Below, piece by piece: positions 44,118 to 48,749 of a stretch of DNA of 64,000 bases. Each line of letters begins with the position of its first letter. The first letter of the stretch is position 1. The notes under the pieces are model-generated. The model searched no databases. It saw nothing but the letters and a program-made list of their open reading frames with translations, and was not told where the DNA came from. The position numbers were made by a program, and so were the translations under genes. This stretch comes from Verrucomicrobiota bacterium (lineage in GTDB: Bacteria > Verrucomicrobiota > Verrucomicrobiia > Verrucomicrobiales > Akkermansiaceae): the NCBI GenBank assembly GCA_030835305.1, contig JAURPJ010000072.1:37832-101831 (forward strand), in the 5' to 3' direction.

Positions 44118-44996
44118 TTACCGTTGCACCCAGTGGGTGACTTCCTGGGTCTTGAGGAATTCCTCGGCCTTCTTTCCCTGAAGGATGGCGAGCGTGGAAA
44201 TCAATCCCGCCTGAAGACACTTTGGCATGCCGACACTGACCGAGGAAGGAGCTTGGCTGACGGGCCAACCGGTTCGCGGATTCAGGATGTGTGAAAGTCT
44301 TTTTCCACGATACATGACGAAGCGGTTGGCATCTCCGCTGGTGGCGATGGCCCCTTCCTCGAGAGCAAAATTCGCGGGTGCGCCCTGAATCCCAATTTGC
44401 CATTGCGCTTTGGATCGTGGTTTCCGATTGGCGGCAAGATCCCCACCAAAGTTGACCAGGATGGGGGCGTCGCTTTCTTTACAACAAAGCGCGAGGGCCT
44501 GGTCGACGGCGTATTCCTTGCCGAAGCCCCCGAAATCGACCTGCATGCCGGGGGGAACCTGGATGGTTTGGCCATCCCAGAAAACTTTTTTCCAGTTGAT
44601 GAGCGGGAGAAGCTGCTTGATCGCCGCGCGCGAAGGCGCCTCCCCGGTGCCGGAGAAGTTCCAGAGCTTCCGAAGGATTCCTGACGTGATGTCAAAATCA
44701 CCATCGCTAAGTTCGAAGGCGGCATCGGCAAAGTTGAGCAAGCGGGCGGTTTCCTCGTCCACCCGCACCGGCTTGTTCTGGTGGAAGTGATGAATCAAAT
44801 TATCGTCGCGGTAGCGGCTATATTTGATTTCAATCCGCGAGGCCTCATCGGCTGCGATTTTCGCAATCCGCGAGGCCTCTTCTTTGCGATCACACTGGAT
44901 AAGGACCTCGCAAGGCCCGGCCATGGCCTGAAATGAGGCCGCGAATTCCCCGGCCTCTTGCCTATGGTTGAGTGTGATCGGTCGTTCTTCTTCCAA
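44118..44996 (-). CDS. apbE: FAD:protein FMN transferase (ApbE family); TTG start proposed
   Basis: VDFGGFGKEYAVDQAL, LVNFGGDLAANR, IATSGDANRFVMYRGKRLSHILNPRTGWPV. Confidence 0.88.
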   Translation of the reverse strand: MEEERPITLNHRQEAGEFAASFQAMAGPCEVLIQCDRKEEASRIAKIAADEASRIEIKYSRYRDDNLIHHFHQNKPVRVDEETARLLNFADAAFELSDGDFDITSGILRKLWNFSGTGEAPSRAAIKQLLPLINWKKVFWDGQTIQVPPGMQVDFGGFGKEYAVDQALALCCKESDAPILVNFGGDLAANRKPRSKAQWQIGIQGAPANFALEEGAIATSGDANRFVMYRGKRLSHILNPRTGWPVSQAPSSVSVGMPKCLQAGLISTLAILQGKKAEEFLKTQEVTHWVQR

Positions 44997-44998
44997 GC

Positions 44999-46294
44999 CT
45001 AAAAATCCATGTTGAAACGCACCATGAAGGCCGAGACATCCTCGCTCAAGTCCTGATTGCGAAGTTCGCCAAAAGCTCCATCGCGGTCGCCAAGATCCTG
45101 GAGGTAGTACTCCAGCGAGATACTCCATGGGCGCTCGACATTGTCGCGTCCGTATTCAAGTCCCACGGTGTAGGCCATCATTTCACCAAGGCGATAGTCT
45201 GGCGAAGCATAGCTGCCACTGCCGGCCGCCGGCACATTCCCTTGGGTGAGGAATGGAGTGAAGAAATCGGCATCATTCTGCTGATAAATCCGCAGGTGGG
45301 GCTGCAAGTACGAGACATCATTGAGACGCCACTTGTATTTTAAATCGAGAGTGTGGGAGTTGATGCCCCAGTCATCAGTCATGAAGCGATAAGAGGCATC
45401 GAAGACGTGGCTGTCGAACATGTCTCGCTTGTACTTTACGAAAAAGCTCTGCTTGAGGCGCGAGTCCGGACGGTTTTCGAAGACAACTTGCGACAGTCCG
45501 GTGGCCGGGTCTTGGACAATCGGACGACCGTCCGCTCCAACCACGGAGATGAATTTGTAGGGATCATTCAAGTAGCCGTCCGAGGCGCTGGCCGAATAGC
45601 TGAATTGAACGAGCGAGCGAGAATCGATGACTTGCGTGAAACTAAACAAGGCATCGATCACGGTCTTGTCATCTTCATCGCCGAGTCGGGGCTGAAGGCC
45701 GCCCGGATTGTCCATGATCCCGAAACTTGCTGGCACTCCGCCCACGGGTGAGATCGTATCGCTGAAGAAAGACAAGCCCCCGGAATAGGTGCGGTTTCGA
45801 TCATCGGTTTGGTAGCTCACCAGGGCATTTGCGGAGAGTGACCGGTAGTCATATTCATTGGAGAAGGCCGCTCCGATAACAGATTGCCAATTGCCATCCC
45901 ACTTACGATTCCAGTTCAGCGCGACGGCGTAGCGTGTATCCAGAAAAGTATCATCGAGAGGGGTCTCGTTGGCGTCCGTAGTGTAGTCGCCGTTGCCTGA
46001 AGGCCGGGTGAAGGTCTGGGCACGGTCAGTGGGAACGGCGCCGCTGGCAGAGGCTCCGGTGAGCGAGTCGAACGTGAGACGGAGGCCAATGGTATCGCGA
46101 TTGTTCAGGAAATAGGTGCCGTCAATAATGGCTTCAATGGCGGAGACGCGATCGGTTTCCGTGTAGTAGAGAAGCGAGCCCTTGAAGTCGGTGTTGAGCA
46201 GGTCATCCTTACCTAGTTGGGCTTTGGCGTCTCCGGTGCCGAGCGCAGCCATTGAAGCACTTGCGAGTGATGCGATGATTTTTTGATTTTTCAT
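44999..46294 (-). CDS. DUF3570 family protein (outer-membrane beta-barrel-like)
   Basis: Signal peptide, alternating beta-strand pattern, DSLTGASASGAVPTDRAQTFTRPSG, C-terminal FNMDF; flanked by DUF4266 and ApbE. Confidence 0.85.
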   Translation of the reverse strand: MKNQKIIASLASASMAALGTGDAKAQLGKDDLLNTDFKGSLLYYTETDRVSAIEAIIDGTYFLNNRDTIGLRLTFDSLTGASASGAVPTDRAQTFTRPSGNGDYTTDANETPLDDTFLDTRYAVALNWNRKWDGNWQSVIGAAFSNEYDYRSLSANALVSYQTDDRNRTYSGGLSFFSDTISPVGGVPASFGIMDNPGGLQPRLGDEDDKTVIDALFSFTQVIDSRSLVQFSYSASASDGYLNDPYKFISVVGADGRPIVQDPATGLSQVVFENRPDSRLKQSFFVKYKRDMFDSHVFDASYRFMTDDWGINSHTLDLKYKWRLNDVSYLQPHLRIYQQNDADFFTPFLTQGNVPAAGSGSYASPDYRLGEMMAYTVGLEYGRDNVERPWSISLEYYLQDLGDRDGAFGELRNQDLSEDVSAFMVRFNMDF

Positions 46295-46306: not shown

Positions 46307-46525
46307 TTAGTTGCACCCGCAGCCTCCGCCACCAAAGCTCCGGCCTCCACTGGAGGCCTCTTTGCTGAAGTAGATGTGATTATCCAGCGCGGTCGTCAGC
46401 GGTGAGGAATCAAGTTGCATGTCCGGGCGTGAAAGAACCGAAGAGGCGTCGCGCGCTCCCGCTCCCAAGTTCGAGCACGCCCCCAGCAGAAAGGCGGTGA
46501 CCGGTCCGAGTAGATAAAACTTCAT
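46307..46525 (-). CDS. DUF4266 family small lipoprotein
   Basis: MKFYLLGPVTAFLLGACSN lipobox; SRPDMQLDSSPLTTALDNHIYFSKEASSGGRSFGGGGCGCN Gly/Cys tail. Confidence 0.85.
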   Translation of the reverse strand: MKFYLLGPVTAFLLGACSNLGAGARDASSVLSRPDMQLDSSPLTTALDNHIYFSKEASSGGRSFGGGGCGCN

Positions 46526-46623: not shown

Positions 46624-46643
46624 CTCATTGGGGCCCCAATGAG
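46624..46643. promoter_or_regulatory. 20-bp perfect palindrome overlapping the response-regulator start codon
   Basis: CTCATTGGGG|CCCCAATGAG; ATG at 46639 lies inside. Confidence 0.6.
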
Positions 46644-47310
46644 GATTCTGGTTTTGGAAGATTATCCGCCGCTTCGGAGCAGCATCGTGGAATGCCTGGT
46701 CGAGGAAGGCTACGCCGTGGATAGCACCGAATCCGGGGACGAAGGTCTCTGGTATGTCAGAAATCACGTCTACGATGTCGCCTTGCTCGATATCATGGTG
46801 CCCGAGGTGAGTGGACTGGAAATTCTCAAGAAGTTGCGCAGCGATGGGAATTCGGTCCCCGTCATTATTATCAGTGCCCGCGATACGGTCGTCCAAAAAA
46901 TCGAAGGTCTGGAGGTTGGAGCTGATGACTATCTGGTGAAGCCATTTTCACTGGATGAAATGTTGGCCCGGGTGCGGGTGCAAATCAGGAGGAGGAACGA
47001 GAAGAAATCCCCGCTGATTTCGGTGGGCGATCTTGTCATCGATACCGCGACCAAAACGGTCCAGCGGGCCGGGCGGGCGATTGAGCTCACCCGGAAGGAA
47101 TACCTTCTCCTCGAATGTTTGGCTTTTCGAAACGGCGAGGTTCTTTCGCGCGAAGATATCGCACGGCAGGTTTACCAGGACTATGAAGGTGGCACTAGTA
47201 ATGTCGTTGACGTTTATATCGGCTATCTTCGCAAGAAGCTCCACATTGATGGTTTGCCCAATATCATTCACACCAAGCGGGGGCATGGTTACTTTTTGAG
47301 CGAGCCATGA
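46639..47310 (+). CDS. OmpR/PhoB-type response regulator
   Basis: Receiver MRILVLEDYPPLRSSIVECL, DVALLDIMVPEVSGLEIL, GADDYLVKPFSLDEML; winged-helix VDVYIGYLRKKL. Confidence 0.96.
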   Translation: MRILVLEDYPPLRSSIVECLVEEGYAVDSTESGDEGLWYVRNHVYDVALLDIMVPEVSGLEILKKLRSDGNSVPVIIISARDTVVQKIEGLEVGADDYLVKPFSLDEMLARVRVQIRRRNEKKSPLISVGDLVIDTATKTVQRAGRAIELTRKEYLLLECLAFRNGEVLSREDIARQVYQDYEGGTSNVVDVYIGYLRKKLHIDGLPNIIHTKRGHGYFLSEP

Positions 47311-48749
47311 AGCGTCCATCGATTCGAGACCGGCTCCTTGCGTGGACCACTTTTGTTATCACGCTGATAATGGCGGTGGCAGGCACTCTTCTTTATAACT
47401 CGGTCAAGCGTTCCCTTTATTCCCAGCACGACCTGTTGCTCAATGAAGCCGCCACGCTCGTTTTGATCGAGGTGAAAGCAAAGAACGGTAAAGTCCATCA
47501 CGAGTGGAAGGCTTCGCTGGATTCGGCATCACGGGAGACGGGCAAGAGCATGATCCAGGTCTGGGATCTTGAAAGTGGAGAGTCGGTCAAGTCAGCTACC
47601 TTGGGTGAGAGTGACCTGGAAAGACAATACGGGAAGTTGGGTGAGCGCGTTTTTTACAACGTGACCTTCCCGAATGGAGAGGCTGGACGGGCGGTGGGTA
47701 TTTTGACCTATCCGGTGGTTGAAAACATGGAGCAAAACGAGGGTTTCGTTCCCGGTGATCATCCCCAGGTCTTTGTGTGGGCGGACAGCACCCAGGAATT
47801 GCGTGATGTTCTAATCAAAACCAAACGTGCTTTTGTGGCGGCGGGGGTGGCGGTGGTTCTGCTTTCGGCCATAGCGATCTGGCTAATTATCTACCTTTCT
47901 TCGCTCGCGGTACAGTCCTTTAGTGCCGATCTTTTGTCGCGCGAGGGAACAGAAATCGGAGAGCCCGTTCCCGTTCCTGATCGCCTCCCTTCGGAGGTGG
48001 CCGGGATGGCCGGAAAGTTCAATGCCTTGTTGGCGCGGATCGATCATTATCGAGAAAAAGATCAGGACTTTTTTCTCAACGTGGCCCATGAAGTCAGGAC
48101 GCCGCTTGCCGGAGTGAAGGCGGTGATCGAACAGGCGCTGCGAAGGCCGAGGGAAGTCGAGGACTACCAAAAAAGACTGCGGGAAGCGCTCGATTCCACC
48201 GAGAATCTGGTCCGTCTGACCGATCGGCTTATGGAGTTTGGCAAGTTGCGTAATGCCCGGGAATCGATGGTGCGCATCACCCTTGATTTGAATACCTTGC
48301 TGGAGGGCGTGCTTGAGAAATTTCGAAGCCGGGCGCGTGAACGCGGCCTGCGGTTCAAAGGTGAATTTTGTCGGAAGGCGGAGCTCGGCACCGACGAGGA
48401 ACTGCTCAAGATTGTTGTCAATAATCTGGTGGAAAATTCGGTGACCTACGCTGCTCCAAACACCGTGATTGAGCTTAAAACATCGAGAACGGAAGGAATG
48501 ATCGAATTCAAAATTCAAAATGAATACTCAAACCCGGAGGGCCTTCCGGATGATCTCGATGTCTTCTTCGATGCCTTTTACCGAAATGACAAGGCTCGCG
48601 ATCTTGGTGCCAACAACATTGGAATTGGCCTCAGTTTCTGCAAGGAGGTGATGCTTGTGCTGGGTGGACAAATTACGGCTTCGAAATCATCTGCTCACGG
48701 TCTGTGTTTCACCGTGAGTCTTCCGGTGAATGGACACGCGGTTGACTAG
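47307..48749 (+). CDS. Sensor histidine kinase
   Basis: Two TM segments; H-box VAHEVRTPLAGVKAVIEQAL; NNLVENSVTYA N-box; IGIGLSFCKEV. Confidence 0.95.
   Translation: MKRPSIRDRLLAWTTFVITLIMAVAGTLLYNSVKRSLYSQHDLLLNEAATLVLIEVKAKNGKVHHEWKASLDSASRETGKSMIQVWDLESGESVKSATLGESDLERQYGKLGERVFYNVTFPNGEAGRAVGILTYPVVENMEQNEGFVPGDHPQVFVWADSTQELRDVLIKTKRAFVAAGVAVVLLSAIAIWLIIYLSSLAVQSFSADLLSREGTEIGEPVPVPDRLPSEVAGMAGKFNALLARIDHYREKDQDFFLNVAHEVRTPLAGVKAVIEQALRRPREVEDYQKRLREALDSTENLVRLTDRLMEFGKLRNARESMVRITLDLNTLLEGVLEKFRSRARERGLRFKGEFCRKAELGTDEELLKIVVNNLVENSVTYAAPNTVIELKTSRTEGMIEFKIQNEYSNPEGLPDDLDVFFDAFYRNDKARDLGANNIGIGLSFCKEVMLVLGGQITASKSSAHGLCFTVSLPVNGHAVD

Follow-up and report, generated by a model that had tools for sequence, protein, structure and literature searches.

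A probable covalently flavinylated DUF3570 protein and its signal-less ApbE partner in an Akkermansiaceae genome

Results

DUF3570 carries one flavinylation motif and is encoded next to apbE

The DUF3570 protein encoded in the window (the whole 64,000-nucleotide stretch of DNA analyzed here) is very probably flavinylated at S82, the last residue of its motif D76-S77-L78-T79-G80-A81-S82, judging from the sequence and by analogy with a flavinylated homologue. As a complete explanation we consider it likely that this protein is a flavinylated outer-membrane barrel to which FMN is transferred in the cytosol, at the precursor stage, and which then displays the FMN at the surface. The first-pass annotation had proposed that DUF3570 itself may be the ApbE substrate. 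This idea is right in kind and already published for the family, in that the cognate ApbE was shown to flavinylate the C. luteolum DUF3570 protein in E. coli (Meheust et al, 2021; PMC8238504). The core finding repeats, for another organism, what has already been published. The features on which the analysis rests are as follows.

44118-44996, minus strand: ApbE flavin transferase of the KE-type (defined below), 292 aa, start TTG 44996; PF02424, E = 2e-57
44205-44207, minus strand: ApbE G264 codon, aligned with E. coli D280, V. cholerae D285 and FmnB D301
44514-44516, minus strand: ApbE E161 codon (GKEY motif), from alignment to 4xgw (E169K; PMC4767422)
44999-46294, minus strand: DUF3570 protein, 431 aa, start ATG; PF12094, E = 3e-116, residues 8-431
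46049-46069, minus strand: flavinylation motif D76-S82, from the sequence; codon of the predicted FMN acceptor S82 at 46051-46049
46307-46525, minus strand: small DUF4266 lipoprotein, start ATG 46525; lipobox LLGAC; C-terminus GGGGCGCN; PF14086, E = 4e-17
46639-47310, plus strand: divergent OmpR-type response regulator
47307-48749, plus strand: sensor histidine kinase paired with the regulator

On the minus strand the order is DUF4266 lipoprotein, DUF3570, ApbE. As annotated, apbE is next in the operon, its TTG at 44996 lying 2 nt past the DUF3570 stop, and DSLTGAS is indeed present at residues 76-82, encoded on the minus strand from 46069 to 46049. The PF12094 match scores 389 bits against a cut-off of 25 and runs along the whole protein; membership in FMN_bind (PF04205) was rejected, as Pfam matches only DUF3570. 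The N-terminus, MKNQKIIASLASASMAALGTGDAKA, is signal-peptide-like. We found no sequence relatives of the protein in the PDB.

DSLTGAS is the only match to Dxx[ST]GA[ST] in the 20,119 residues of the window's main ORFs, and DUF3570 contains no [ST]GA[ST] beyond it. The pattern occurred at least once in 0.7% of composition-preserving shuffles of the protein; on this ground, together with the conserved alignment column described below, a chance motif was rejected. A second site at S84-G85-A86-V87 was considered and rejected, because it lacks an acceptor residue and does not align with the second chlorobial site.

Conservation of the acceptor site

Since the FMN bond is formed with the final Ser/Thr of the motif (PMC12052999), S82 is the predicted acceptor. 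T79, earlier named as the residue to mutate, is a recognition residue, and Ala occurs naturally at its position in some homologues encoded beside apbE. We aligned 147 distinct DUF3570 proteins from Verrucomicrobiota, Pseudomonadota, Bacteroidota and green sulfur bacteria (for one genome set, green sulfur identity was checked by the FMO protein, found in 12/12 genomes). The S82 column held Ser or Thr in 146/146 homologues (96 S, 50 T). For the same 146 sequences, the remaining columns were D121/S17/N7/E1 at D76, S70/T66/A9/G1 at T79, G122/S22/A1/N1 at G80 and A116/M11/S9/E5/G3/Q2 at A81. On a tree built with the motif columns left out, the Ser/Thr class at S82 never changed, and we counted at least three class changes at D76, four at T79 (Ser/Thr versus other), five at G80 and 15 at A81.

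The full motif is conserved but not invariant in DUF3570 proteins found with apbE. When apbE lies within 300 bp, the strict motif is present at the window column in 50 of 108 DUF3570 proteins, and 31 of the 108 have no [ST]GA[ST] anywhere. Many apbE-linked proteins have M, E, S or G instead of A81. The 31 proteins devoid of [ST]GA[ST] include the second DUF3570 of the same genome (L002), which reads DSLTGMT and has its own ApbE and DUF4266:

L008 7106-9429, contig C117: second DUF3570-ApbE-DUF4266 cluster

Green sulfur DUF3570 proteins have DSV[ST]GASP at the window motif column; a second SGAS, closer to strand 4, occurs in most of them. By alignment, the window motif is the positional ortholog of chlorobial site 1, which together with the flavinylated C. 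luteolum homologue argues for DUF3570 as the substrate. The window protein resembles the C. luteolum protein in its Pfam family, its apbE neighbor, the DUF4266 partner typical of such clusters and the site 1 column. The two differ in that the window protein has one canonical site where the described ApbE-flavinylated set has two; in C. luteolum the serines of both [ST]GA[ST] motifs had to be replaced to abolish flavinylation. The clusters described in that paper combine ApbE and DUF3570 with a thioredoxin-like protein and DUF4266, and some also have DsbD (PMC8238504), whereas no thioredoxin-like or DsbD gene adjoins the window cluster; such genes are frequent in these systems without being present in all of them.

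The adjacent ApbE belongs to a distinct sequence type

In place of the AKG[YF]AVD and ADALST of most ApbEs, the window enzyme has GKEYAVD and CLQAGLIST, respectively. In an alignment to solved structures, E161 is located one residue past E. coli ApbE E169, and G264 replaces the metal-binding Asp, while the active-site Ser and His are kept. In the E. coli enzyme, D280 is a ligand of metal site 1 and E169 of metal site 2 (PMC4767422); ApbE has only three conserved catalytic residues, this Asp (Asp285/Asp301) among them (PMC12052999). We refer to enzymes that carry Glu in the metal loop and have Gly in place of the conserved Asp as KE-type, and to those with the usual Gly in that loop as KG-type. 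Among 141 ApbEs, 103 had the combination E+G, 36 G+D and one G+E, and one was incomplete; E+D and G+G combinations were not seen among the 141. Nearly all KE-type enzymes (97/103) are encoded within 1.5 kb of a DUF3570, and Flavobacteria-like DUF3570s pair with signal-bearing KG-type ApbEs. On these sequence grounds, the DUF3570-linked ApbEs outside the Flavobacteria-like set are a distinct type, for which the Asp-to-Gly/Gly-to-Glu exchange is a clean mark in genomes. The window enzyme shares the ApbE family, the TSG serine and the active-site histidine with the periplasmic lipoproteins V. cholerae ApbE, Listeria FmnB and E. coli Ftp, and differs from them in its Asp-to-Gly change, in the Glu that follows the metal-loop Lys and in lacking a signal peptide or lipobox.

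Loss of a conserved catalytic Asp could mean that the adjacent enzyme is no longer a flavin transferase and has taken on another role. This seems scarcely credible: the change to Gly covaries with the new Glu in the other metal loop in 139/140 scored sequences, Ser and His are kept in 140/140, and the green sulfur ApbEs, every one of which in our set is KE-type, share their lineage with the enzyme active on DUF3570, the C. luteolum ApbE being assumed to be of the same type.

The type of enzyme also tracks the substrate motif. Wherever a KE-type ApbE adjoins DUF3570, the motif has G80 (92/92); next to a KG-type ApbE it never does (0/16). The two counts lack phylogenetic independence. In five Pseudomonadota genomes with KG-type ApbEs only, likewise not independent by phylogeny, the DUF3570 motif is DxxSSAS or DxxSNAS, and one further DUF3570 (L143/L181) retains SGAS with no KE-type ApbE. 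Genomes with KG-type ApbE only preserve the acceptor Ser/Thr as well, and S82 may therefore have a structural role too. Taken further, the D-x-h-[ST]-G-x-[ST] box would be nothing other than a structural corner leading from strand 3 into loop L2, with no flavin in the window protein. The persistence of S82 in the DxxSSAS class and the substitutions at A81 in apbE-linked proteins would fit such a corner, which we nevertheless judge very unlikely given the association of G80 with the type of ApbE, the full consensus in the window motif and the homologue flavinylated at such sites (PMC8238504).

The site is predicted at the extracellular end of a barrel

The AlphaFold2 model of the window DUF3570 is a 16-stranded barrel (pLDDT 91, pTM 0.86), and its 50 best PDB fold matches by Foldseek are all outer-membrane barrels. 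Together with the barrel fold, the signal-like N-terminus, the even number of strands and the C-terminal aromatic residue (Phe; most DUF3570s end in F, W or Y) are traits of a predicted outer-membrane beta-barrel. The topology rests on the strand order and loop lengths of this model: loops on one side have 4, 38, 2, 26, 37, 4, 32 and 19 residues, and turns on the other side 4, 4, 4, 2, 5, 4 and 6. The long-loop side of outer-membrane barrels is usually extracellular.

In the model, strand 3 ends with D76-T79, and the 38-residue loop L2 begins with G80-S82. The site is thus predicted at the start of an extracellular loop and not, as had been considered earlier, in a periplasmic turn. In a two-site green sulfur DUF3570, both sites lie at the ends of the equivalent loop. 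Many of the best-conserved residues (E147, D149, S145, Y150, Q339, P276, D366, P245) are found at the extracellular end, which suggests that the functional center of the modeled barrel is at its outer mouth. Whether the FMN itself would reside at the cell surface we regard, from the model, as evenly balanced.

MtrAB-type porin-cytochrome conduits (6r2q, Foldseek rank 30) likewise combine an outer-membrane barrel with redox cofactors. As a difference from them, no cytochrome gene was found in the window cluster; the TM-score of ~ 0.4 is common to every barrel, and any functional likeness is speculative.

ApbE of the KE-type appears to be cytosolic

Signal peptides were judged by N-terminal hydropathy rather than SignalP, a best 12-residue mean below 2.0 being taken as no hydrophobic stretch. 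By this measure a hydrophobic N-terminal stretch was found in 0/104 KE-type ApbEs and in 28/37 KG-type ApbEs. The window ApbE has no such segment from any plausible start, and the conserved block of KE-type enzymes begins near the start codon, between a few and a few tens of residues past it. With a looser hydropathy cut-off of 1.5, 131/143 DUF3570s have signal-peptide-like starts. An apparently cytosolic ApbE and an exported substrate imply modification before export, and we consider it somewhat favored, on sequence evidence, that FMN transfer precedes export of DUF3570. The flavinylated C. luteolum protein came from the insoluble pellet, following denaturation (PMC8238504); a folded barrel is therefore probably not needed, which fits an unfolded chain as the substrate. 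Known cytosolic ApbEs serve soluble cytosolic or eukaryotic intracellular proteins (PMC12052999). The K. pneumoniae cytosolic ApbE, which also has no signal peptide, acts on a soluble cytoplasmic fumarate reductase (PMC12052999), whereas the window substrate is a predicted exported outer-membrane protein.

S82 might instead be flavinylated in the periplasm before barrel assembly, either by a secreted canonical ApbE or by the KE-type enzyme, if it exits the cytosol via an unrecognized route. Characterized ApbEs work mostly in the periplasm (PMC12052999), Flavobacteria-like DUF3570s have signal-bearing partners as described above, and the same genome encodes a KG-type ApbE with a lipoprotein-like N-terminus (L005, contig C48) that could act there. 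We nonetheless consider periplasmic transfer unlikely, in view of the close linkage of KE-type ApbEs to DUF3570 and of two green sulfur genomes that have DUF3570 and encode a single ApbE each, a signal-less KE-type enzyme.

A model for flavinylation of DUF3570

From the motif, the homology of its column, the gene order, the predicted barrel topology, the ApbE subtype and its lack of a signal-like start, all obtained in this analysis, we infer the modification of the window protein, its timing before export, the surface FMN and the electron route. In this model, the ApbE encoded downstream would move FMN from FAD to S82 of DSLTGAS. Since the ApbE type dedicated to DUF3570 has no signal peptide, transfer to the still unfolded precursor would most likely take place in the cytosol. 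The chain with its flavin would then pass through Sec and fold into the outer membrane. FMN would thereby end up at the mouth of the barrel, within the first long extracellular loop, where it could serve as a redox group. Electrons would probably reach it from the DUF4266 CxC lipoprotein and, in many relatives, also from a thioredoxin-like protein; supply by the CGCN tail of DUF4266 is speculative.

A more far-reaching version of the model is tentative and falls somewhat short of probable. It holds that a signal-less dedicated ApbE with a relocated metal-binding carboxylate flavinylates its substrate in the cytosol before Sec, yields surface FMN in a cytochrome-free flavin-barrel system and also accepts DSLTGMT, DSLSGET and DSIAGAT. 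The new parts would be the type of enzyme, its predicted location and the possible tolerance of non-canonical acceptors. We found no mention of these three in the literature covered, which extends to few subscription journals, and that literature does not deal with the way in which a covalent flavin reaches a loop that an outer-membrane protein exposes at the surface. The available portion of the C. luteolum paper (PMC8238504) does not discuss barrel topology, ApbE location or the Asp-to-Gly change. If ApbE is cytosolic, the cofactor-bearing chain must cross both Sec and the barrel-assembly machinery. FMN at the outer cell face, if present, could reduce extracellular acceptors without cytochromes.

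Neighboring genes and origin of the cluster

In a DUF3570 tree, the window protein nests among gammaproteobacterial sequences (Granulosicoccus, Chromatiales; SH-aLRT 97), apart from other Verrucomicrobiota copies. From this placement the cluster was probably acquired horizontally.

The window DUF4266 protein ends in CGCN, with the C-terminal CxC present. The C-terminus of DUF4266 proteins is nearly always GGCGCN, a flexible tail rich in glycine that contains a CxC pair.

DsbD and Trx_7 matches were found elsewhere in the same genome. The canonical lipoprotein-like ApbE (L005) lies ~ 7 kb from DsbD and thioredoxin genes, and an ORF with two FMN_bind domains is present on contig C19 (L006/L007). 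In two same-genus relatives (L187 8118-8591, L188 1356-1856), the position between DUF3570 and DUF4266 is occupied by a TlpA-like thioredoxin gene instead of apbE, and the DUF3570 motif is SGQT. An ApbE remnant was looked for in the L187 gap and rejected, the gap being occupied by the TlpA-like thioredoxin.

An OmpR-type regulator-like gene was found within 3 kb of DUF3570 in 20/48 wide loci, and comparable regulators recur beside DUF3570 in Flavobacteria and Granulosicoccus. The divergent promoter region of the window contains a 20-bp perfect palindrome, CTCATTGGGGCCCCAATGAG, at 46624-46643; as a candidate operator it was set aside, being only partly kept in the near-identical relative L040.
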